A stretch of DNA of 64,000 nucleotides from Actinomycetota bacterium (GTDB lineage Bacteria; Actinomycetota; Thermoleophilia; Miltoncostaeales; Miltoncostaeaceae): NCBI GenBank assembly GCA_963169235.1, contig CAUJCX010000047.1, positions 62,001 through 126,000 of the forward strand. Reading direction: 5' to 3'. The notes below the pieces were generated by a model that had not been told where the DNA came from, made no database searches, and saw only the letters and a list, made by a program, of their open reading frames with translations. Numbering within the stretch: the first letter of the stretch is position 1; every line of letters begins with the position of its first letter. Shown here piece after piece: positions 9,096 to 46,919 of this stretch. The position numbers and the translations under genes are program-made.

Positions 9096-9151
9096 GCGCC
9101 CACTGCATCACGCCAGGCCGCACCGGGGTGTCACGACGTGTGACGCCGCCG

Positions 9152-9814
9152 TCACGCGGTCGTGCCGGCCGACGCACCGCTGCGGACGAGCGGGCGCGCG
9201 GGCACGCCCACCACGGTGATGCCGTCGGCGACGTCCCGCACCACCACCGCGCCCGCGCCCACGACGGCGTCACGGCCCACGCGCAGGCCCGGGAGCACCA
9301 CGGCGCCCGCCCCGAGGTCGGCGCCCTCACGGACGTCGACGCCGCCCGAGATGCGGGTACCCGGCGAGAGGTTGACGAAGCTGCCGATGCGCGCGTCGTG
9401 GCCGATGGTGCAGCCGGGGTTCAGCGACACGAAGTCGCCCACCTCGATGTCGGTGGTGAGCGACGTGAGGGGCAGCATCAGGCATCCCTCGCCCACGCGC
9501 ACGCGGGTGCCGATGCAGACGGTGGGGTGGATGAGCGTCGCGAACCGTCCGCCGTGCCGCCGCACGCCGGCGACGGCGCGGCGGCGCTGCGCGGGGCTGC
9601 CCATGGCGGGCACGGCCCGCACGTCGCGCGCCCCCGGCCGTGCGAACCACGACTCGTCCCCCAGCACCGGCAGGCCGGCGATGCGGTCGCCCGGATCCGC
9701 CGAGATGTCGATGAACCCCACGACCTCCACGTCGTTTCCATCCTCGGTCATCGCAGCCGCGACGGCCACGGCCTCGCGGGCGAGCCCGCTGGCGCCGAGG
9801 AGGGCCACCTTCAT
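9152..9814 (-). CDS. NeuD/PglD-like sialic-acid-type O/N-acetyltransferase
   Basis: About 220 residues. An N-terminal Rossmann-like segment (VALLGASGLAREAV) is followed by a left-handed beta-helix of hexapeptide repeats (HPTVCIGTRVRVGEGCLM through GAGAVVLPGLRVGRDAVVGAGAVV). The His in IHPTV and TIGHDA are typical of the PglD/NeuD active site. The family acetylates UDP-amino sugars. It overlaps the aminotransferase gene upstream by 4 bases (ATGA), so the pair probably installs and acetylates an amino group on one nucleotide sugar. Confidence 0.82.
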   Translation of the reverse strand: MKVALLGASGLAREAVAVAAAMTEDGNDVEVVGFIDISADPGDRIAGLPVLGDESWFARPGARDVRAVPAMGSPAQRRRAVAGVRRHGGRFATLIHPTVCIGTRVRVGEGCLMLPLTSLTTDIEVGDFVSLNPGCTIGHDARIGSFVNLSPGTRISGGVDVREGADLGAGAVVLPGLRVGRDAVVGAGAVVVRDVADGITVVGVPARPLVRSGASAGTTA

Positions 9815-10932
9815 GGCGTCGCGGACACGAACGCGGCGACTTCGCCCACGACGTCGTCCACGTCCTGCGACGTCATCTGGGCGAACAGGGGGACGTTGAG
9901 CACCTGCGACGCGCAGAGCTCGGCCGCCGGCAGTGGGTCCTGGTCGTGCCGGTACTCTGGGATCGGCTGGCGATACGTGGGGATGGGGTAGAGCGACCGC
10001 GTCTCGATGCCGGCGGACCGCAGATGCCGGGCGAGCCCGTCACGGTCGTCCACGAGGATCGGCAGCGAGAACCAGGCGGGGGTCGTCCCCTCGAGCGGCA
10101 CGGGAACGCGGACGCCGGGCATGCCGGCGAACGCCGCGTGGTACTGGTGCGCGTGCTGACGGCGCAACTCGCACAGGCGCGCCAGCTTCGTCATCTGCAC
10201 GACGCCGATGGCACCCTGGAAGTCGGTGATGCGGTGGTTGAAGCCCAGCGCGTCGTGCACGTACTTGCGCCCGGGGATCTCCCCCTGGCCGCGGTACCGG
10301 CGCGCACGCTCGGCCAGATCGTCGTTGTCGGTCAGCACCATGCCGCCCTCGCCGGTGGTGATGATCTTGGCCGAGTGGAAGCTGGTCGTCGCGAGCACGC
10401 CGACCTTCAGGGCCGAGCGCTCGCCGTGGAACGTGCCCAGCGACTGGGCCCCGTCGACGATGATGCTCACGCCGTTGTCGGCGCACGCCTTCTCGATGGG
10501 CGGGTAGTCGATGGCGAAACCGCAGTAGTCGGCCGCGACGTACGCCTTGGTACGCGGCGTGATGCGCGCCGCCAGGTCGGCCGGGTCGACGTTGAGCGTC
10601 TCGGGGTTCACGTCGCACCACACGGGACGGGCACCCGCCCGGACGATGCAGTTCACGGTGGCGATGTACGACAGCGCCGACACCAGCACCTCGTCGCCGG
10701 GTCCGATCTCCAGCAGCCTCATGGCGACCTCGAGCGCGTCGGTGCCGTTGGACACCGCGATGCCGTGACCGCGTCCGGTGTACGCCTCGACCGCCTGCTC
10801 GAACTCGCGGACGTTGCGCCCCATCGACAGGCGGCTGTCGGCGATGGCGCGGCGGGCCGCGTCGGCCTCCTCGTCGCCGACGGGCGGGACGGCCCATGGA
10901 ATCCGGATCGGGGAAAGGGCTTGCGAGCTCAA
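9811..10932 (-). CDS. DegT/DnrJ/EryC1/StrS-family PLP sugar aminotransferase
   Basis: A 373-residue aminotransferase fold type I protein. Conserved features are SNGTDALEVAMR, the PLP-contact DGAQSLG and the Schiff-base lysine in SFHSAKIITTGEGG. It transfers an amino group, usually from glutamate, to a keto-nucleotide sugar. The start chosen is TTG at 10932, in the only frame matching the family N-terminus; the ribosome site is weak. It is first of a pair with the acetyltransferase and separated by 100 bases from the glycosyltransferase block upstream. Confidence 0.87.
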   Translation of the reverse strand: MSSQALSPIRIPWAVPPVGDEEADAARRAIADSRLSMGRNVREFEQAVEAYTGRGHGIAVSNGTDALEVAMRLLEIGPGDEVLVSALSYIATVNCIVRAGARPVWCDVNPETLNVDPADLAARITPRTKAYVAADYCGFAIDYPPIEKACADNGVSIIVDGAQSLGTFHGERSALKVGVLATTSFHSAKIITTGEGGMVLTDNDDLAERARRYRGQGEIPGRKYVHDALGFNHRITDFQGAIGVVQMTKLARLCELRRQHAHQYHAAFAGMPGVRVPVPLEGTTPAWFSLPILVDDRDGLARHLRSAGIETRSLYPIPTYRQPIPEYRHDQDPLPAAELCASQVLNVPLFAQMTSQDVDDVVGEVAAFVSATP

Positions 10933-10949
10933 ACAGGCCTACCAGTGGA

Positions 10950-10966
10950 GGGGACGAGACGTCCCC
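10950..10966 (-). terminator. possible terminator or leader hairpin between glycosyltransferase and aminotransferase genes
   Basis: A 7-bp stem, GGGGACG paired with CGTCCCC, around a 3-base loop lies in the 100-base gap. No T-run follows. A TAGACT -10-like box lies at 10969-10974 on the - strand, so the hairpin could instead sit at the start of the aminotransferase transcript. Confidence 0.3.
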
Positions 10967-11032
10967 AGAGTCTAGCGGCGGCCACCCGTGAGCTTGGCCG
11001 GCGGCGAGATCTTGCGGCCGGGTACGGCGCGC

Positions 11033-12340
11033 CTACGCGTCGCCGGGAGGGCGCACGAAGCGCTCGAGCTGAGCGGCCGCCGTCGCGCACACGTCGAGCC
11101 CGCGCGTGGCCCCCAGCCCGTCGAGGGCACCGTTGACGCGCGAGGCGGTCTGCGCCGCGACGCGCTCGCCCGGCGCCCGCCGGGCCACCTGCACGATGTC
11201 CGCCGCGTACCGCTCGACCGTCTGCGTGGCGGCCCACGCCCGGCCCCGGGCCCCCACGCGTGGAAGGTCCTCCACGTGGGCGAGGGCGTCGCGCAGCGCG
11301 TCCCCCACGGCCTGAGGGGTGAACGCGGCCGCACGGATCGCCGCGTCGCCGGGCACCTCGGCGAAGATGCCGCGGTCGCCCACCAGCACGGGACGCGCGG
11401 ACGCCATCTGCTGCAGCAGCGACAGCGAACCGCCCTCCGTGCACGGGTTGCGCAGGTTCACGTGGAGGTCCGCCCAGTCGAACGTGTCGCTCAGCTCGTC
11501 GGCCGACACCCAGCCCGTCATCGTCACGCACTGCTCGAGCCGGTTCTGCACGATCAGATCGGTGAGGCGTCGGCCGTAGTGCGAGCGCAGGTCGATGGGG
11601 CCCGCGATGCGGTATTCGACGCGCCGCGCGAGGTCGGGGTCGAGGGCGAGCGCCTCGATGACCGTGTGGATCTGCTTGGGCTCGCCGACCCAGCCCAGCG
11701 ACAGCATGCGGACGCGCTCGCCCGGCGGCACCACCCGCACCGGGGCGGCGGGGACGCGGGTGTCGACCGTGGGCAGCCACAGGCGGCTCACCGGCCCGCC
11801 CCACTCGCCCGCCAGGCGTTCGCGCTGGGCCTCGCAGTGCACGACGACGGTGAGCGCCGCCCGCACCGCCTCGCCCAGCAGCGGGTAGCGGTCGGTGTCG
11901 TCCTGCGAGGGATAGCCGTTGGGCGACGTCTCGACGTCGGCCACGAGCCGGTCGGCGACCTCCGGGCCGTACCAGGTCTCGACCAGCCCGGCGTAGTCCT
12001 GCAGGTCGAACCGGTGGATGTTGAGGTAGGCGTGGTGGAGCGTGGAGTCGTGCAGGATCACGACGCCTGCGACCGCCCGCGCCACCGCGATGATGTCCTC
12101 GTGGAACTGGGCGGAGTTGCCGATGTTGAACACGCACACCGTGTCGTCGGTGATCTTCTCGGTCGGCAGGGACCAGCGCGTGAACCGCACGACGGGGACG
12201 TCGGTGGGCAGCAGCACGGGGCTGCTCGCATCGGTCCACACGGTGACGTCGACCTCGCGGGCGAGCTCGGCGACGATCTCGCGGCTGAGGGCGCCGATCG
12301 CGCTGTCGGGGCTGAACGGCGTGAACCAGGCGATCCTCAA
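11033..12340 (-). CDS. GT4-like glycosyltransferase
   Basis: About 435 residues. The C-terminal half has the GT-B nucleotide-sugar domain: LGWVGEPKQIHTVIEALAL, then TMTGWVSADELSDTFDWADLHVNLRNPCTEGGSLSLLQQMASARPVL, in which the E-x-x-x-x-x-x-x-E-like region (EGGSLSLLQ) contacts the donor. It transfers a sugar from a nucleotide donor during polysaccharide assembly; acceptor unknown. The start chosen is TTG at 12340: it overlaps the preceding stop as TTGA and has GAGGAG 8 bases upstream. GTG at 12370 is the longer alternative. Confidence 0.8.
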   Translation of the reverse strand: MRIAWFTPFSPDSAIGALSREIVAELAREVDVTVWTDASSPVLLPTDVPVVRFTRWSLPTEKITDDTVCVFNIGNSAQFHEDIIAVARAVAGVVILHDSTLHHAYLNIHRFDLQDYAGLVETWYGPEVADRLVADVETSPNGYPSQDDTDRYPLLGEAVRAALTVVVHCEAQRERLAGEWGGPVSRLWLPTVDTRVPAAPVRVVPPGERVRMLSLGWVGEPKQIHTVIEALALDPDLARRVEYRIAGPIDLRSHYGRRLTDLIVQNRLEQCVTMTGWVSADELSDTFDWADLHVNLRNPCTEGGSLSLLQQMASARPVLVGDRGIFAEVPGDAAIRAAAFTPQAVGDALRDALAHVEDLPRVGARGRAWAATQTVERYAADIVQVARRAPGERVAAQTASRVNGALDGLGATRGLDVCATAAAQLERFVRPPGDA

Positions 12341-13380
12341 CGCGTCAGCTCCTCGATCACGCGGTCCCACGAGATGCCGAGCTCCCGGGCCCGGTCCTGA
12401 CCGGCGGCCCCCATGTCGTGCGCCGTCGCCCGGCCGGCGGCGGCCCGGTCGAACGCCTCACCCAGCGCGCGCGCATCGGGCTCGGCCACCCAGCCCGTCT
12501 CACCGTCGGCCACCAGCGCCAGCACTCCCTTCCCGCTGTCGGTCAGCGAGACGACGGGCTTGCGTGACTGGTAGGCCTCCAGCGTCACGTAGCCGTACGA
12601 GTCCTCGTCCACCGGCAGGTACGCGCAGGCCAGGCAGTCCGCCATCCAGTCGGCCTTCTCGCGGTCGGTGATCCAGCGCGCGTGCACCTCGACGCGGTCG
12701 TGGAGACCGAGGCGGTCGACGGCCTCGTGCAGCACCCGCCCGTCGTGCTCGGAGTCGGGCGGGCCCGCGACCACGAGCCGCACGTCGGAGCGGACGTGGG
12801 CCATGGCCTCCACCGCCAGCAGCTGCCGCTTGGCCGCGGACAGGCGGCTGGGCATGAAGATGAAGTCCTGCGGCGGCCGGGTGGTGAACATGTCGGGGTC
12901 GGGCAGCGGGGCGTACAGCACCTCCGACGGGATGCCGTTGAACGTCATCAGCCGGTCGCGCGTCACCGGGGAGTTGGTGTAGATGCGACGCGCCTCGGGG
13001 AGGAACGCGTCGTCGGCGCGGCGCACGGCATCGCGCAGCGCGACCCCCCACGAGTCGTTGGCGAAGCCCTGCAGCGGCGTTCCCCACAGATCGTATGCCT
13101 GCCGGTACTGGTGCAGCATCCACAGCACCTTGTTGTCGTGGGGCACGTGGTAGGCGGGGAACTTCAGGGCGACCACGCGGTCGACGTGGTCGAGCCGCAT
13201 CAGCCGGGCGGCGAGGATGTGGTCGAGCAGGACCTCCGGCGGGTTCCACGCGGCCGGGATGTCGACCGCGAACGCGTCGATGCCGCGCTTGCGCAGCTGC
13301 TCCACCAGCGAGGCGGAGAGGATCTCGGCGCCGCCCCGCAGGAACGGCACGACGGCGTTGACGACGGCGACGGTGGTCAT
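12337..13380 (-). CDS. GT4-like glycosyltransferase
   Basis: A 347-residue GT-B protein. N-terminal VVPFLRGGAEILSASLVEQLRKRG is the acceptor-side glycine loop. The donor domain runs through FIFMPSRLSAAKRQLLAVEAM and ends with YVTLEAYQSRKPVVSLTDSG, holding the conserved Glu of the E-x7-E type site. ATG at 13380 overlaps the upstream gene as ATGA, and its own stop overlaps the next as TTGA, so three glycosyltransferase genes are translationally linked. It probably adds one residue of the surface glycan. Confidence 0.83.
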   Translation of the reverse strand: MTTVAVVNAVVPFLRGGAEILSASLVEQLRKRGIDAFAVDIPAAWNPPEVLLDHILAARLMRLDHVDRVVALKFPAYHVPHDNKVLWMLHQYRQAYDLWGTPLQGFANDSWGVALRDAVRRADDAFLPEARRIYTNSPVTRDRLMTFNGIPSEVLYAPLPDPDMFTTRPPQDFIFMPSRLSAAKRQLLAVEAMAHVRSDVRLVVAGPPDSEHDGRVLHEAVDRLGLHDRVEVHARWITDREKADWMADCLACAYLPVDEDSYGYVTLEAYQSRKPVVSLTDSGKGVLALVADGETGWVAEPDARALGEAFDRAAAGRATAHDMGAAGQDRARELGISWDRVIEELTR

Positions 13381-14366
13381 CGCAGCAGCTCCTCGGCGAC
13401 GTCGTGCCAGGTTCCCGTCCGGGCGGCGAGACCCGCACGGGCGGCCCCGCCCAGCGCGCGGGCGCGGGTGGGGGAGGCGACCAGCCCGCGGAGGGCGTCG
13501 GCCAGCGCGTCCGCGTCGGCGGCCACCACCAGACCGGTGGCGTCCGGGGCGATCGCGTCGGCGGCGGCCGTGTCGTCGAGGGCCACGCACGGCACCCCCA
13601 GCGACGCCGCCTCGTCGGCGATGCGGCCCGTCGCATCGCCGGGGACGGCCGCCACGGCTGCCACCGCCCCCGCCAGTGCCTCGCGGCGTTCACGCTCGTC
13701 GGCGGCGAAGCGCACCCGGTGACCGACCCCGTGCGCCTCGGCCTCCCGCTCGGCTTCCTCCCGCCACCGCGCACCCGGCGGCGGCGCACACACCAGCGTG
13801 GTGCCGGCCCCAAGCGTCGCCACGGCGTCGCACAGCAGCCCGGCGCGCGCCGCGGGCCATTCGGCGTAGAGGTGACCCGCCGGTGCGACGCCCGGCGGCG
13901 CGTCGGCCGCGTCCCACGGCAGGGACAGGACGGCGGGGACCACGTCGGGCGGGTCCGTCAGCAGCGCCGCCAGCCGGGGCGTGGCGGCGTACACCCGCCC
14001 CACCCATTGGAGGGCGCGGCCGGCGGCGGCCTGGGCGAACTCCACGGTGCGCCCGTGCGCCGACGCGACGTCCACTCGTGCCGGTGCCGCGGGTGGCCCG
14101 GTGAGGCACCATGCGACGTGGTCGGGATGCCGCAGCACGCAGGCGGGGAAACGCAGCGTGATGAGGCGATCGCTCGCATGGCCGATCTCCAGCAGCCGCA
14201 GCGCGAGGATCTCCTCCTGCAGGCGGGCGTCGTCCGCGCCCACGGGCAGCACCAGGGTGTCGACGTCGTGGCCCGCGTCGCGGACGGCCGCCGCGAGTGC
14301 GGCGACCTCACGGGGCGGCGTCGGTTCGCGACCGGCCGCGAACACCGAGGCGATGAGCACCTTCAT
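13377..14366 (-). CDS. divergent glycosyltransferase-like protein
   Basis: A 329-residue protein in line with two other glycosyltransferases. MKVLIASVFAAGREPTPPREVAALAAAVRDAGH resembles a GT-B N-terminal fold, and the tail DEAASLGVPCVALDDTAAADAI followed by ATGLVVAADADALADALRGL resembles the donor-site helix and loop. The central region is alanine-rich and less conserved, and the usual R/K of the donor site is not obvious, so activity is uncertain. It overlaps genes on both sides by 4 bases. Confidence 0.65.
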   Translation of the reverse strand: MKVLIASVFAAGREPTPPREVAALAAAVRDAGHDVDTLVLPVGADDARLQEEILALRLLEIGHASDRLITLRFPACVLRHPDHVAWCLTGPPAAPARVDVASAHGRTVEFAQAAAGRALQWVGRVYAATPRLAALLTDPPDVVPAVLSLPWDAADAPPGVAPAGHLYAEWPAARAGLLCDAVATLGAGTTLVCAPPPGARWREEAEREAEAHGVGHRVRFAADERERREALAGAVAAVAAVPGDATGRIADEAASLGVPCVALDDTAAADAIAPDATGLVVAADADALADALRGLVASPTRARALGGAARAGLAARTGTWHDVAEELLR

Positions 14367-15313
14367 GCGGGCTTCCGGCCCGTCACCAACGCGTCATCCG
14401 CTGCGGCGTCGTCCGCGCGCACCTCCACGTCGGCGAACCCGATGATGGTGAGGGCGTCGGCGAGAACGTCGGGGGGCAGCGGCCACCGGTCCTGGAACAG
14501 GGCATCCCCCGGCCGGGTCGTCCCCGTACGGGTCTCCAGCGCGACGCGACCGCCGGGGACGAGCGCCCGGACCACGGCGTCGAGCACCCGGCGCCGGTGC
14601 GCCCCCGGCAGGTCGTCGAGTGACGGCGGCACCACGATGCCGGCCACCGAACCGCGTCGCAGGTGAGCGAGGTAGGCGGGCCACGGCTCGACCCAGGCCT
14701 CGTGCCCCCGCGCCCGGCAGCGGAGGACGGCCGCGTGGTCGTCGTCGACGCCGATGCCCTCGATGCCGCGGTCCCGCAGGGCCGCGAGCAGCGCTCCGTC
14801 GCCGCAGCGCAGGTCCACCACGGGACCGGCGTCGAACAGCGTGGGCAGGTCGCCGAGGCGGGAACGCACCGATGCGGTGGTCACGGGATCGAGCTCGGCA
14901 CCGGACGGTCCCGCCGCTCCGTGCCCGGTGCGCCGCTGGAGGTCCTGCACGATGCGCTGCACGTCCCGGACCCGGGTCTCGAGGATCTGCGTGTCGTGGT
15001 CGTGGCGCAGGTGCATGCGCGTCGAGGCCGCCTGGAAGCCCTCGATGCGGCCCAGCAGCGGGAAGAGCAACTGGGCGATGCGTGCGCGCGCCGCCAGCAC
15101 CGGGCGCTTGCCCCCGCGGGTCCACGCCGTGTCGGTGACGCGGAACAGGCGCTCCAGGTCGGCGAGGTCGGACGTGCGCAGCGGGTCGTGCAGCACGCTG
15201 TCCGTCGCGCGCCGCGGGGCGCCGCGCCGCACCAGCGGCAGGTGCGACCTGATGCGATCGACCAGTGGCCCTCTGTGGGTCGCGGGGTATCCGTCCTGGC
15301 GGGGGCCGTTCAC
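14363..15313 (-). CDS. SAM-dependent methyltransferase of the glycan block
   Basis: About 316 residues. A class I methyltransferase core is visible: motif I VVDLRCGDGALLAALRDRG, an acidic residue after beta-2 (GIGVDDDH) and the SLDDLPGAHRRRVLDAVVRALVPGGRVALET segment. The N-terminal ~110 residues are basic and helical with QTILETRVRDVQRIVQDL-like coiled-coil character, seen in methyltransferases fused into glycan clusters. The start is uncertain: GTG at 15313 is the longest reasonable one. It is first of the four-gene block; promoter not identified. Confidence 0.7.
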   Translation of the reverse strand: MNGPRQDGYPATHRGPLVDRIRSHLPLVRRGAPRRATDSVLHDPLRTSDLADLERLFRVTDTAWTRGGKRPVLAARARIAQLLFPLLGRIEGFQAASTRMHLRHDHDTQILETRVRDVQRIVQDLQRRTGHGAAGPSGAELDPVTTASVRSRLGDLPTLFDAGPVVDLRCGDGALLAALRDRGIEGIGVDDDHAAVLRCRARGHEAWVEPWPAYLAHLRRGSVAGIVVPPSLDDLPGAHRRRVLDAVVRALVPGGRVALETRTGTTRPGDALFQDRWPLPPDVLADALTIIGFADVEVRADDAAADDALVTGRKPA

Positions 15314-15536
15314 GCGGTGGCACCGCTTGCCGGTGGTGCTGTCCGCGCCTGTGTCGTCCGCGCCATTCGCCTCCGTCTGACCTCGTCCACCGATCACCCG
15401 CAGCCCACGGCCGCTACGGGGTGCATACCAGACCGGTACCGGCGGGGACGTCGTCGCGGCGGCCGGTGCGCGCGTGTCACCGGCACGGCACAGTGCGCGA
15501 CACACGCGTGACGGTCTCGCCTGCAGCATCCCGGGC

Positions 15537-17063: not shown

Positions 17064-18162
17064 GCCCGCATCGGCGGACGAGGCCCTGGGGCTGGCGCTG
17101 CTGGCGCACGGGCTCAACCGCGACCTGCAGCGGGCGGCGCGCGCGGCCGGAGGGGCGGGCGCCCTGTGGCGCATGGGTCCCGCAGCCCAGGCCCGCCTGC
17201 TGCGCGTGGCCGAGGCCGACGTGCGGGCCGCGGCGACGCGCGACGCGCTCGCGGCGGCCCGCGGACGGCTTGAGGCCGCGGGCGTGTCGCTGGTGGCCGC
17301 GGGGGACGTGCCCGAACGGCTGCGCCAGGTCTTCGACCCGCCGTTCGGCCTGTTCGCGGAAGGCGACTGGGCCCGGGTGGCCGGCGCGCTCACCGAGCGT
17401 CCGGTGGTGGCCGTCGTGGGGACGCGGCGACCCACGGCGGCGGGCCGTCGCTTCGCGCTGGGGCTCGCGGCCGAGCTGGCCGCCCGCGGCGCGGTGATCG
17501 TCAGCGGCCTGGCCCTGGGCGTCGACGGGGCCGCGCACGAGGGGGCGCTGGAGGCCGGCGGCGACACGGTGGCGGTGCTCGGCTGCGGCCTCGATCACGA
17601 CTATCCCCGGGCCCACCGCGCGCTGCGCGCGCGCCTGCGTGAGCGGGGCGCGGTGATCAGCGAGTACTGGTGCGAGACGGCGCCGGCGCCGTGGCGGTTC
17701 CCGGCCCGCAACCGCATCGTGGCGGGCCTCGCCCACGCCACGGTGGTGGTGGAGGCGCGGGGGCGCAGCGGCGCGCTGATCACCGCCGACTTCGCGCTGG
17801 AGGCCGGCCGCGTGGCGCTGGCGGTGCCGGGCCCGCCGTGGGCCGATGCGTCGCAGGGATGCAACGAGCTCATCCGCGCGGGCGCGGGTGTGTGCACCGG
17901 GGCGCAGGACGTCGTGGACGAGCTCCCCCACGCCGCCTGGGGCGATACGCAGGCGGAGGCCGACGCGGTCGCCGCGCCCGTCGGAGACCGGGGCGTGCTC
18001 TATGGCCTGGTGCGGGCGGAGCCGATGCGTATCGACCAGCTGGCGGCGACGGCCCGCATCACCCCGGCGGCCACCGCGGCCGCGCTGGCCTCACTGGAGG
18101 TCGACGGGCTGGTGCTGCGCGGCGAGGGGCAGCGCTACTGGGCCGTGCGGCGGGCCACGTGA
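17056..18162 (+). CDS. dprA: DNA-processing protein DprA
   Basis: A 368-residue protein. The Rossmann-like DprA core is clear: VAVVGTRRPTAAGRRFALGLAAELAARGAVIVSGLALGVDGAAHEGAL, then GCGLDHDYPRAH, ISEYWCETAPAPWRFPARNRIVAGLA and VEARGRSGALITADFALE. The C-terminus has a winged-helix (MRIDQLAATARI). DprA loads RecA on incoming single-stranded DNA in transformation. It starts with GTG inside the comM end and shares an operon with it. Confidence 0.95.
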   Translation: MARPASADEALGLALLAHGLNRDLQRAARAAGGAGALWRMGPAAQARLLRVAEADVRAAATRDALAAARGRLEAAGVSLVAAGDVPERLRQVFDPPFGLFAEGDWARVAGALTERPVVAVVGTRRPTAAGRRFALGLAAELAARGAVIVSGLALGVDGAAHEGALEAGGDTVAVLGCGLDHDYPRAHRALRARLRERGAVISEYWCETAPAPWRFPARNRIVAGLAHATVVVEARGRSGALITADFALEAGRVALAVPGPPWADASQGCNELIRAGAGVCTGAQDVVDELPHAAWGDTQAEADAVAAPVGDRGVLYGLVRAEPMRIDQLAATARITPAATAAALASLEVDGLVLRGEGQRYWAVRRAT

Positions 18163-18989
18163 CGGGCGCGGAACGCGGCGTACCGGCTGTGATGGCGCGG
18201 CCCGGGCGCCGCGGTCGCCGTCGCCACCGTCACGGGCGCTGTCGTGCCGTCCCCGTCGAGGCCCAGGCTGATGCGGGGCGCGTGATCGCGCAGCACCCGC
18301 AACGCCAGGCCCACCAAGAGCACCAGGCCGCCGATCTCGAGGGCCTCCTCGACGGTGGTCATGAGGCCGTACACCGCATTGCGGGTGCTGCCGTCGTACG
18401 AGTCGAGGTATGCCCCCGCCACCACCTCCATGCCGAGCGCGCCCACCAGGTAGACGGCGATCGCCACGGCGAGTGCGCGCCGCAGGTCGCGGCCGAGCCG
18501 CGGGATCAGGCGTGCGTAGGCCAGCGCGACGACCGCGGCGGCCACGGCGTAGCCCGCCACCCACGTGAAGTGGGCGGGACCGCCCGCGTGGAGGCCGGCC
18601 CGCAGCGGCGCGGTGAGCAGCTCGTGGATGCCCGCGGCCTCGTCGACGGCCAGGAACCCCGCGATGGCGGCAAGGCCCCAGACCGCCCGGGCGTGGGGCA
18701 GGCCGCGACGCCCCCGCTCGCACGCCACCAGCGCCAGCAACACCGCGACGGTCAGCAGCAGCAGCGCCGAGAAGAACGCGGGCACGTTGCCTTCGCCATC
18801 CAGGTCGAACAGGGGCACCAGCCCCATCAGCCGGCCCCGGTCGAGCACGTGGCGCGTCAGCTCCGACGCGATGCCCGCACCGACCACGCAGGCGGCCGCC
18901 CACGCGACGGCCCGCACCAGGCGGCGGGGGCTCGTGCGCAGGCGCAGCGTCTCGGTGCTCGCGTCGCGTGGCGGGACCGGATCCGGCAT
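18135..18989 (-). CDS. polytopic membrane protein of unknown function
   Basis: About 284 residues and six or seven hydrophobic helices, starting with VAWAAACVVGAGIASELTRHV. Acidic residues inside or beside helices (FLAVDEAAGIHELL; TTVEEALEIGGLVLLVGLAL) are distinctive, but I do not recognise a family. ATG at 18989 fits a TTGTCA-17-TACGGT promoter that ends 6 nt before it. The coding end overlaps the end of dprA by 28 bases in convergent orientation. An in-frame upstream ATG at 19238 was rejected because the promoter lies between. Confidence 0.65.
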   Translation of the reverse strand: MPDPVPPRDASTETLRLRTSPRRLVRAVAWAAACVVGAGIASELTRHVLDRGRLMGLVPLFDLDGEGNVPAFFSALLLLTVAVLLALVACERGRRGLPHARAVWGLAAIAGFLAVDEAAGIHELLTAPLRAGLHAGGPAHFTWVAGYAVAAAVVALAYARLIPRLGRDLRRALAVAIAVYLVGALGMEVVAGAYLDSYDGSTRNAVYGLMTTVEEALEIGGLVLLVGLALRVLRDHAPRISLGLDGDGTTAPVTVATATAAPGPRHHSRYAAFRARHVARRTAQ

Positions 18990-18995
18990 GCGGGC

Positions 18996-19024
18996 ACCGT
19001 AACGATGTGACAAGTCTGTGACAA
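18996..19024 (-). promoter_or_regulatory. leaderless-type promoter of the membrane protein gene
   Basis: On the - strand TTGTCA (19019-19024) is followed after 17 bases by TACGGT (18996-19001), then 6 bases before the ATG at 18989. A second TTGTCA overlaps at 19008-19013, 11 bases away. Confidence 0.6.
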
Positions 19025-19386
19025 CCGGTGGCGCCGCGCCGGGAGGCCACTCGGTCGCGCGCGACGCGCGCGCGGAGGCGTTCGTCGCCGGGCCGCGCCC
19101 GGAGGACGGCGCCCGGGCGGGGGACGCATGCCGGTCAACGAGCGCGGTGAGGGCGTCGCGATGCCGCTCGCCGTGCGCCTCCAGCGCGTCGTTGAGCACC
19201 CGACGCGGCAGCGGGTCCCGCTCGGCCCGGCGCGCCATCGCCTCGTCCAGGCGCTCGGCCAGCGCCTCCCGCCGCCTCGCGGCGACCAGGGGCGGCGCGA
19301 GCGGTGGCGCGGCCGGGAGGACGGTGGCCGCGCACCCGCGAGCCCGCGTGGGGCGACGGCCTCATCACGCCGCGTCCGACGGTGCC

Positions 19387-28047: not shown

Positions 28048-28623
28048 TCACACGACCCCGGCGGGGAAGGGGGCGAGGGCGTCGCGGATGCGGGCGTCCG
28101 CGGCCGCGAACGCGTCGTCGTCCAGCACCGGCGTGCGCGCGCCCGCGACGATGCCGTCGGGCAGCGCGATCCAGCTGACGCAACCACCGTGCTCGGGCTG
28201 CACGTCGAGCACCGGCGGGGAGTCGAGGCGCCAGACCCGCAGCACGGCCGCCCACAGCGGGTGCTTGCGCCGCCATTTGAGGCGCTCGGCGGCATAGTCG
28301 GGCGTGAGGGTGTGCTCCGCGTCGATGGCGGCCAGCGCCTCGTCGTCGCGCAGCGCGTACGACGACCGCAGCTCGGCGTACAGCGCCAGGGGCAGGTGGG
28401 CGGGCTCCTCGCGGTGATCGAGCGACGCTGCGTACCGCGCGTGGAACTCGGGCTTCACCAGCTCGGGCCGCTGGTGCAGGTACGTGGGCATCAGGAAGAA
28501 CCGCGGATGGGGCAGATCGAAGCGCTTCTCGCCGATGCCGCCCTTGCGCACCACCAGCACCTGGTCGCCCGCTCCCAGGGCCTCACACGTGACGCCCCAC
28601 TCCTTCAACGCGAACTCGGTCAT
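28048..28623 (-). CDS. DUF1802 family protein
   Basis: A 191-residue protein beginning FALKEWGVTCEALGAGDQVL, then VVRKGGIGEKRF, and continuing with HPRFFLMPTYLHQRPELVKPE, which matches the DUF1802 family (A-L-K-E-W, R-K-G-G-I, F-x-x-x-P-T-x-x-H-Q). The function is unknown. ATG at 28623 lies 7 bases after a TACCAT box. The gene reads away from the acquired segment at 28654-29888, which has been placed between its promoter and that of mqnE. Confidence 0.8.
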   Translation of the reverse strand: MTEFALKEWGVTCEALGAGDQVLVVRKGGIGEKRFDLPHPRFFLMPTYLHQRPELVKPEFHARYAASLDHREEPAHLPLALYAELRSSYALRDDEALAAIDAEHTLTPDYAAERLKWRRKHPLWAAVLRVWRLDSPPVLDVQPEHGGCVSWIALPDGIVAGARTPVLDDDAFAAADARIRDALAPFPAGVV

Positions 28624-28630
28624 GGGGCCG

Positions 28631-28636
28631 ATGGTA
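28631..28636 (-). promoter_or_regulatory. leaderless-type -10 box of the DUF1802 gene
   Basis: TACCAT on the - strand, 7 bases before the ATG at 28623. Confidence 0.55.
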
Positions 28637-28653
28637 GACCAGCCGACGCGCAT

Positions 28654-28670
28654 CGGGCCGGTGCCGGGGG
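28654..28670 (+). repeat. left 17-bp direct repeat flanking the inserted gene
   Basis: CGGGCCGGTGCCGGGGG, identical to 29872-29888. It ends 2 bases before the stop codon of the lower-GC gene. Confidence 0.7.
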
Positions 28671-28672
28671 CC

Positions 28673-29821
28673 TCACGGGGCGACCAGCCAGGAGACTCCT
28701 GCGAAGACGACGCTTACTAGGAGACCGATGGCGAACGACAACCAGTCGGCTCGGGTGCGAGGGGGCCGTATCACGCAGAAGATCACGGTGAAGGTCGCGA
28801 TCACCATGGCGGCAGACGCTGCCAGGACGGACGTCACTACGTGAGAGTCGTACCGTCCGCCGGCCGACTGAGTCGCGCCCAGCACGGCGCCACCGAGCAG
28901 AGAGATAACCGCCGCAAACAATCCCAGCGTCATCATTTCGCTCCGCGTCGCGCCCTCGAGACGCTCCTCGCTCGTCTGGAGGCGGATCTCGAGGTCGCGT
29001 GCGGACTGTTCGAGATCAGCCCTGAGCGCCATCGCTTGCACGTCCCGAAGGCGCCGAGCGTGCGTCGACGATCCTGCCGGGGCCATGTCAAGAACGATCT
29101 GGGCGAGTCGCCGGGCCTCCTGGAAGTGGCCCAAGACAAGTTGACACCGCGCGCTGAGCATTAGGAAACCCGCGTCCTCGGGATCCAAGTCGACCAGCTC
29201 GGTCATCTCTGACGCGAGCGCGGTGTTGAGCTCTTGGTTCCGAGTGGAAGGGGATCGGGATTCCTGTTCGAGGAGTTGCAGCCGGACGAGCAACGCGCGC
29301 GGACCTACGTCTGGCGTGCCCGCCCCGCCCGTGGTCGATGCGCGTTGGATCGCCCGCCTCGCGTGGGTGATCGCACGCTGGCGCTCGCCCCTTGCATCGC
29401 AGATCTCTGCCTCCCAAACATCGACCAAATAGCCCCATTCCATGGCGCGAAGAGCCGACCAGCGTGCTTTAGACGCTGCGGCGTCACCGATTGCCATCGC
29501 CAACTCGTCCTCAGGGGCGTGACTCGTGGCAATGTCGTCACAGTGATCTAGCCATGCCTCGAGTTCTCGGAACGCGCGCTGTACGCGGTGCCAGCGAACA
29601 CCGATCCAGACGATTCCGAGCATCTCGTCCTCTGAAAGGCGGGGGGTGACGGCCTTCAGTAGGAGTTCGCGCTCCGCAGGTTCGAGCTGGAAGCGAGATT
29701 CAGCGTCCTTGATCCGGCGGAGATAGACCGGTCGGATCGTGCTCGGGGTCAGACCACCCAGCGCTGTGGCCAGTTCACCGAGCTGCCGCTGTAGGGCGTC
29801 GAGGTCTTCCGCGGTCTTCAC
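28673..29821 (-). CDS. helical protein with C-terminal membrane helices, in a lower-GC inserted segment
   Basis: About 382 residues. The first ~270 are soluble and helical, with TPR-like pairs (MLSARCQLVLGHFQEARRLAQIVLDMAP), then a short coiled coil (LEQSARDLEIRLQTSEERLE) and three hydrophobic segments near the end (MTLGLFAAVISLLGGAVLGA, VVTSVLAASAAMVIATFTVIF, WLSFAIGLLVSVVFAGVSWL). No family is recognised. Base composition is visibly lower in GC than its neighbours and codons such as TTA, ATA and CTA types appear. GTG 29821 has AAGGGA 7 bases upstream; TTG 29848 is the longer start. It is alone between two copies of a 17-bp repeat. Confidence 0.65.
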   Translation of the reverse strand: MKTAEDLDALQRQLGELATALGGLTPSTIRPVYLRRIKDAESRFQLEPAERELLLKAVTPRLSEDEMLGIVWIGVRWHRVQRAFRELEAWLDHCDDIATSHAPEDELAMAIGDAAASKARWSALRAMEWGYLVDVWEAEICDARGERQRAITHARRAIQRASTTGGAGTPDVGPRALLVRLQLLEQESRSPSTRNQELNTALASEMTELVDLDPEDAGFLMLSARCQLVLGHFQEARRLAQIVLDMAPAGSSTHARRLRDVQAMALRADLEQSARDLEIRLQTSEERLEGATRSEMMTLGLFAAVISLLGGAVLGATQSAGGRYDSHVVTSVLAASAAMVIATFTVIFCVIRPPRTRADWLSFAIGLLVSVVFAGVSWLVAP

Positions 29822-29871
29822 GTCCTCGTCCCTTCGCCCAAACGTCAAGATGCTCTACAACTACCCTACGC

Positions 29872-29888
29872 CGGGCCGGTGCCGGGGG
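29872..29888 (+). repeat. right 17-bp direct repeat flanking the inserted gene
   Basis: CGGGCCGGTGCCGGGGG, identical to 28654-28670. It lies upstream of the inserted gene and 19 bases before the mqnE -10 box. Confidence 0.7.
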
Positions 29889-29907: not shown

Positions 29908-29913
29908 TACCCT
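29908..29913 (+). promoter_or_regulatory. leaderless-type -10 box of mqnE
   Basis: TACCCT preceded by TGA, 6 bases before the ATG at 29920. Confidence 0.6.
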
Positions 29914-29919
29914 GCGGGC

Positions 29920-31005
29920 ATGATCGATGCCATCCTTTCCCGCGCCGCCGACGGCGAGCGCATCACGCCCGACGAGGCCATCGCGCTGTACGAGCAGGCC
30001 CCCCTCAAGGATCTCGGCGCCGCCGCCGACGCCGTGACCCGGCGCCGCTACGGGGGTGACGTCACGTACAACGTCAACGCGCACCTCAACCCCACCAACA
30101 TCTGCGTGGTGGGCTGCGGGTTCTGCGCGTTCGCCGTGTGGACCGAGAACGACCCGCGGGCGTACGCCTACAGCGTCGATCAGCTGGTCGAGCGCGCGGG
30201 GCAGATGGTGGGGGAGGGCATCACCGAGCTCCACATCGTCGGCGGCATGACCAAGGAATACGACCTGCCGTACTACGAGGACCTGTTCCGCGAGCTGAAG
30301 GCCGCCTACCCGCAGGTGTCGCTGACGGCCCTCACCGCGGTGGAGATCGACTTCGTGGCCCGGGTGTCGAAGGTGTCGCACGCCGAGGCGCTCGAGCGCA
30401 CGCGCGCCGCGGGCCACGACACGATGCCGGGCGGCGGCGCTGAGGTGTTCGCCAAGCGCGTGCGCAAGATCATCGCCGACCGCAAGGTGCCCTCCGAGAC
30501 GTGGCTCGACGTGCACCGCGAGGCGCACGGGCAGGGCATGCGCACCAACGCCACCCTGCTGTTCGGCCACTTCGAGACGCCCGCCGAGCAGGTGGACCAC
30601 ATGCGCCAGCTGCGTGAGCTGCAGGACGACACCCAGGGGTTCCAGGCGTTCATCCCGCTGCCGTTCCTGCCGGGCAACACCGAGTTCGCGTACCTGCCGG
30701 GCCCCAACCGCGAGGAGAAGCTGCGCACCATCGCGACGGCGCGCCTGTTCCTCGACAACTTCCCCCACATCAAGGGCCACTGGGTGATGCTGGGCGAGGA
30801 GATCACCAGCGAGGCGCTGGGCTTCGGGCTGGACGACCTGTCCGGCACGCTGGGCGAGGAGCGCATCGCGCACGCCACCACGGTGCAGACGCCGCTGGGC
30901 CTGTCGCAGGAGCGCATCAGCGACCTGGTGCGCGCCGGGGGCAAGACCCCGGTGGAGCGCGACACGCTGTACAACCGGGTCGAGCGGGAGTCGGTCACCG
31001 CGTAG
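29920..31005 (+). CDS. mqnE: aminofutalosine synthase (radical SAM)
   Basis: A 361-residue radical SAM enzyme. The [4Fe-4S] cluster motif C-x3-C-x2-C is NICVVGCGFCAF near residue 60. LTALTAVEIDFVARVSKVSHAEALERTRAAGHDTMPGGGAEVF, WLDVHREAHGQGMRTNATLLFGHFET and GFQAFIPLPFLPGNTEF match MqnE rather than the related MqnC. It joins a chorismate-derived enolpyruvyl benzoate with adenosine in the futalosine route to menaquinone. No other mqn gene is in the window. Confidence 0.9.
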   Translation: MIDAILSRAADGERITPDEAIALYEQAPLKDLGAAADAVTRRRYGGDVTYNVNAHLNPTNICVVGCGFCAFAVWTENDPRAYAYSVDQLVERAGQMVGEGITELHIVGGMTKEYDLPYYEDLFRELKAAYPQVSLTALTAVEIDFVARVSKVSHAEALERTRAAGHDTMPGGGAEVFAKRVRKIIADRKVPSETWLDVHREAHGQGMRTNATLLFGHFETPAEQVDHMRQLRELQDDTQGFQAFIPLPFLPGNTEFAYLPGPNREEKLRTIATARLFLDNFPHIKGHWVMLGEEITSEALGFGLDDLSGTLGEERIAHATTVQTPLGLSQERISDLVRAGGKTPVERDTLYNRVERESVTA

Positions 31006-46625: not shown

Positions 46626-46919
46626 ATGCTGCGCGTCGACGTGACGGGTGATTGCCCGCGGGGGCTCGCGTTCGACCCGACGGGCGAGCTGGACGCTCGA
46701 GCGCGCGCGGACGGGCTGTGGGAGGGCGATCCGGACTACGGACCTTCGGACGTAGGTGAAGGCCCGAGCGTCAGCATCACGCTGATCGTTCCCCCCGCGG
46801 CAGGCGCGAACGGCGCCGACCGCGAGGCATTCGCGTGGCGGTGGCTCCTCACGACCCTCGATGACATGGGCATCGACACTGCTGGTGCCGCCCTCTGGCG
46901 TTTCGGGGACGCCCACTGA
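46626..46919 (+). CDS. hypothetical 97-residue protein
   Basis: A 97-residue acidic protein, MLRVDVTGDCPRGLAFDPTG at the start and FAWRWLLTTLDDMGIDTAGAALWRFG near the end. It has no membrane helix and no recognised family. AGGAG lies 10 bases before the ATG, longer than ideal. Base composition is slightly less GC-rich than neighbours. The region after it, to 47209, holds no gene I can support. Confidence 0.5.
   Translation: MLRVDVTGDCPRGLAFDPTGELDARARADGLWEGDPDYGPSDVGEGPSVSITLIVPPAAGANGADREAFAWRWLLTTLDDMGIDTAGAALWRFGDAH

Follow-up and report, generated by a model that had tools for sequence, protein, structure and literature searches.

A single foreign gene bordered by a 17-bp direct repeat in the DUF1802-mqnE spacer of a Miltoncostaeaceae genome

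Genes and promoters at the locus

In the 64-kb stretch of DNA analysed here (the window), a single gene lies between two divergent genes, DUF1802 on the left and an mqnE-like radical SAM gene on the right. The DUF1802 gene occupies 28048..28653 on the minus strand (Pfam PF08819, E 1.3e-46), and its conserved start is probably the ATG at 28621-28623, which would be leaderless. The mqnE-like gene occupies 29920..31005 on the plus strand, matches the Pfam families Radical_SAM and CofH_C, and takes its name from its best NCBIfam match, TIGR03700 (MqnE), whose score of 413.9 bits is just under the cut-off of 434.55. In relatives, TAnnnT-type boxes are conserved 6-8 nt upstream of both starts, and the window has TACCAT at 28631..28636 on the minus strand, the probable -10 box of DUF1802, and TACCCT at 29908..29913 on the plus strand, the probable -10 box of a leaderless mqnE. 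These boxes support the divergent leaderless promoters that the original prediction had placed at this locus.

The gene in between runs over 28673..29848 on the minus strand and was characterised from its open reading frame, its codon usage, the hydrophobic segments of its product and a remote protein family. Two starts may be considered, TTG 29848 (391 aa) and GTG 29821 (382 aa), and the latter is preceded by a purine-rich, SD-like stretch. We regard the gene as coding because it has a long open frame in which both GC1 and GC3 exceed GC2. The lower GC noticed earlier was borne out when GC and codon bias were computed for each gene: the inserted gene has a GC of 0.645 against 0.738 +/- 0.030 for the 53 other window genes, called by codon statistics (mean and s.d.), and a GC3 of 0.742 against 0.944 +/- 0.033, and it alone among the genes called in the window has a negative codon-usage score, the codon statistics being taken from these window genes. 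By its codon usage, the inserted gene is foreign and un-ameliorated.

The direct repeat and the spacer in relatives

Two exact copies of the 17-mer CGGGCCGGTGCCGGGGG border the gene, the left at 28654..28670 and the right at 29872..29888, both given on the plus strand. Both positions are exactly those predicted, as is the tight fit on the left, where the stop codon lies 2 bases from the end of the repeat copy. The concern that the 17-mer might be frequent across the genome was not borne out, since the whole 2.94-Mb genome holds only these two perfect copies, with three single-mismatch sites elsewhere. The length of the repeat is unremarkable in itself because five exact repeats of at least 17 bp within 3 kb occur in the window, where about 0.35 are expected under a first-order Markov model; its position, hugging one gene, is remarkable. 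A hairpin or terminator role of the 17-mer was also considered and found unsupported, with a fold z of +1.6 and no terminator-like site.

Considering that the window contains other exact repeats of 17-20 bp and that the spacers of the family are GC-rich, the 17-mer could be a chance repeat, in which case the ends of the insertion would be blunt or unrelated to it. However, composition-matched flanks of 50 bp share a word of at least 12 bases with a P of only ~0.0007, and nine other indel sites seen when the window is aligned to the sister species show a border background of 7-9 bp, as opposed to 17 bp at this junction. The join that retains one copy also fits a relative better than the join that retains none, as described below. 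We therefore hold a chance repeat to be very unlikely.

DUF1802 and mqnE are divergent neighbours across Miltoncostaeaceae (Thermoleophilia). The spacer between them is 39-103 bp long in nearly all family members examined, the junction being otherwise conserved and the segment absent, and in a second genome collection the same range holds in 27 loci, every one except the sister species. These short spacers agree with the earlier view that the gene separates two genes that would otherwise be adjacent. The spacer in the window measures 1296 bp, and subtracting the 1218-bp repeat period, that is, the gene with one repeat copy, leaves 78 bp. This one-copy join can be aligned from end to end with the 87-bp spacer of G006, a member of another genus, at a score of 58, whereas the score falls to 32.4 when both copies are removed.

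Judged from this alignment, one repeat copy is probably ancestral. The evidence is moderate because shuffled or random 17-mers swapped into the join match the G006 score in 3-5% of trials, and the GC richness of the spacers makes the one-copy alignment only moderately convincing. The pre-insertion sequence is reconstructed here, the only congener compared bearing an insertion of its own in the spacer. The original prediction had expected an empty site with one 17-mer; empty short spacers were found nearly family-wide, but the 17-mer itself is favoured only at the 3-5% level.

Relatives of the inserted gene left no trace in the Miltoncostaeaceae genomes, and its absence from all relatives goes against a gene always carried here and inherited vertically. 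Short repeats are known to mediate deletion of the DNA between them (PMC2884548), and an old insertion in the ancestor of the genus or family could have been lost from the relatives in this way, through slippage between the repeat copies. On the other hand, the foreign, un-ameliorated codon usage, the lack of any trace of the gene in family genomes and the short spacer in nearly all genera argue against such an old insertion, and we give it very little credence. Two further spacers differ in length. In G012 (L015), a unit of ~35 bp repeated in tandem has expanded the spacer to 172 bp, and in G011 (L025/L038) a spacer of 826 bp shows a coding signature in no frame and is possibly a decayed insertion.

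In the sister species, G001 (JAGQUM010000031.1), the DUF1802-mqnE spacer is occupied by another single gene, unrelated to that in the window, which lies in mqnE orientation (L008:456-1226) and encodes a 256-aa class I SAM methyltransferase. The border repeats of that insertion are 8 bp long, not above background, and the 17-mer alone aligns to the right flank in G001 no better than shuffled sequence. The insertions in the window and in G001 look independent, and the spacer holds different genes in the two sister species. In this genus it may be permissive, and we withhold the label of a hotspot because two species are too few. A more far-reaching reading, in which the spacer is a recurrent capture site where unrecognised machinery inserts one-gene fragments with promoter-sparing duplications, and in which the gene taken up represents a novel family of membrane signalling or defence proteins, seems to us quite unlikely.

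Three other segments of the window also differ from the sister species. A 6.4-kb segment at 9098-15523, in place of which the sister species has 385 bp, resembles a polysaccharide cassette in its gene content: a DegT-type aminotransferase, a hexapeptide transferase whose N-terminus is PglD-like, and two glycosyltransferases. A gene of 367 aa at 18135-19238 has no Pfam match and is missing from the sister species (62 bp versus 1366), and a gene of 97 aa at 46626-46919, with a depressed GC3 (0.81) and likewise no Pfam match, is also missing there.

Acquisition of the gene

We propose a lineage-specific, duplicating insertion of one foreign gene into the spacer by illegitimate integration, the product being a membrane signalling scaffold, and we consider this explanation as a whole to be likely. 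A foreign fragment of ~1.2 kb with one complete gene would have integrated into the short DUF1802-mqnE spacer in the lineage of this species, and a 17-bp target stretch would have been left on both sides of it. The most likely process would be illegitimate integration through short homology or Ku end-joining. We infer two possible recombination routes. On the one hand, a crossover may have passed through 17 bp common to the spacer and a circular donor; on the other hand, the fragment may have been captured at a break with staggered ends, the 17-nt overhangs then being filled in. At 17 bp, the exact repeat is below the homology threshold of RecA (about 30 bp). The genome encodes Ku, and capture of the fragment by end joining at staggered ends could therefore have occurred. 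With a repeat copy left on either side of the gene, neither resident promoter is parted from its own upstream sequence. The foreign codons, the absence from relatives, the empty sites and the one-copy join together uphold the original proposal of a one-gene cargo gained by recombination or site duplication.

The compact cargo and the exact 17-bp duplication that hugs the gene, 2 bp from its stop, would also suit an unrecognised non-autonomous element, mobilised in trans and leaving a target-site duplication, as would the fact that the sister species has a one-gene insertion of its own, with a different gene, in this spacer. However, ORF and Pfam analysis revealed no transposase or integrase adjoining the gene, and no terminal inverted repeats were found at the insertion, which confirms at this locus what had been stated from the sequence, and attC is lacking as well. 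Furthermore, the insertion in the sister species shows only the 8-bp background repeats, and both the gene and the repeat pair are present in a single copy in the genome. Accordingly, we consider cargo of a mobile element to be unlikely.

Two known kinds of element were compared with the locus and set aside. The lack of inverted repeats and of an adjacent transposase does not fit a transposon with target-site duplication. An integron gene cassette is alike in that one compact, promoter-poor gene is inserted as a unit, but the window locus has neither a 3' attC nor an integrase and is flanked by a direct repeat instead; core-site-like heptamers number only two per type, both within coding sequence and none at the 3' end.

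The genome is a metagenome-derived draft of 65 contigs and the gene is compositionally foreign, as would be expected if a foreign contig had been joined into a native one during assembly. But the DNA on both sides is native and keeps its synteny with the sister species, and assembly would be unlikely to misjoin twice, each time precisely at an end of the gene and over a seam of 17 bp, less than the usual assembly word. An assembly artefact is thus extremely improbable.

The proposed insertion with duplication can be compared with small variable segments described elsewhere. In the species studied by Touzain et al. (2010), 10-18% of such segments are repeat-flanked, mostly by repeats of <30 bp, and the authors ascribe them to illegitimate recombination (PMC2884548). 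These microdiversity loci resemble the window locus in being small, lineage-specific segments with no known mobile element and a repeat of <30 bp, and alternative contents have also been described at them (PMC2884548). They differ in that strains were compared there, with results that mostly point to deletion between the repeats (PMC2884548), whereas here species are compared, the host encodes Ku, and the sites found empty across the family favour insertion with duplication. In homology-facilitated illegitimate recombination (PMC2884548; PMC3240628, E. coli), the foreign DNA likewise has little homology, or none, to the chromosome at one of its two joins. That process, in contrast, depends on more extensive homology at one end, and resident DNA is as a rule replaced, whereas nothing resident was apparently lost here and the 17-bp stretch was duplicated. 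The event neatly illustrates a known process, the gain of a small variable segment, and the gene it brought in is under-described. It also offers a clean case of single-gene gain with no recognisable mobile element and with both neighbouring promoters intact.

The encoded protein and a remote actinomycete family

The product is predicted to consist of TPR-like helices, a coiled coil (~261-298) and three C-terminal membrane helices, the latter corresponding to hydrophobic segments at ~305-323, 342-360 and 372-390. Pfam gave only sub-threshold TPR matches, the PHROGs and NCBIfam searches gave nothing significant, and PADLOC matched nothing up to an E of 1. About 1,200 genome searches with the protein, some genomes being counted more than once, yielded no close homologue, and neither did collections of genome contigs, plasmids, phages and viruses. 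A structure model from the single sequence was poor (pLDDT 51) and all-helical and adds little; with this model, Foldseek returned only non-significant TPR-like resemblances, as did a sequence search of the PDB. Six weak matches (L039, L040, L086, L087, L088, L100) proved on inspection to be chance or likely chance, involving out-of-frame or antisense ORFs, membrane stretches and proteins of no relation, a type II topoisomerase subunit and a Gfo/Idh-type oxidoreductase among them. The statement that the product matches nothing thus held for close relatives but not for remote ones, since the searches did turn up one remote family that shares its architecture.

This family (L099/L101-L105) has no Pfam name and is rare in one actinomycete family, where 7 of the 151 genomes matched and 2 of the 7 matches were spurious. 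Residues ~141-391 of the window protein align with L101-L105 at 23-26% identity. A single hhalign comparison of the two gave a probability of 93% and an E of 3.3e-7. In Smith-Waterman alignments, z was 6-8 and none of 400 local-composition shuffles reached the score; for the soluble part alone, none of 300 local shuffles did so. We consider that the C-terminal ~240 residues are probably a remote homologue of this actinomycete TPR-coil-3TM family, at the limit of what sequence comparison can resolve. The homology is probable rather than certain because the profile of the remote family alone did not pick up the window gene in its own genome; the same profile found nothing in 396 genomes of the phylum. 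Two matches obtained with an actinomycete relative as query (L106, L107) were chance matches in carbamate-kinase-like proteins.

The predicted order of TPR-like helical domain, coiled coil and three C-terminal membrane helices, already recognised in the original prediction, is common to the window protein and L101-L105, and it suggests a membrane-anchored signalling scaffold. In the three remote-family loci read (L108, L109, L110), genes for a PP2C-like phosphatase (PP2C_2) and a TauD-like dioxygenase adjoin the family gene, and two of these loci also have a Nudix gene. In one genome, the remote-family cluster lies just downstream of a PglX gene.

By analogy with these relatives beside a PP2C-like phosphatase, the product is probably a membrane-anchored scaffold and signalling partner, and both its membrane topology and its signalling role are predictions. 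A membrane-linked defence protein, which had been raised as a possibility, is not supported: direct support for a defence role is lacking, PADLOC having no match, the remote clusters look like signalling, and no neighbour tested was a convincing defence gene. The window protein also differs from L101-L105 in that its N-terminal 140 residues are unrelated or unalignable, and its gene, from another bacterial class, has DUF1802 and mqnE as neighbours instead of the phosphatase and dioxygenase. Accepting the probable homology, the protein would extend a rare, undescribed TPR-coil-membrane family to another bacterial class.
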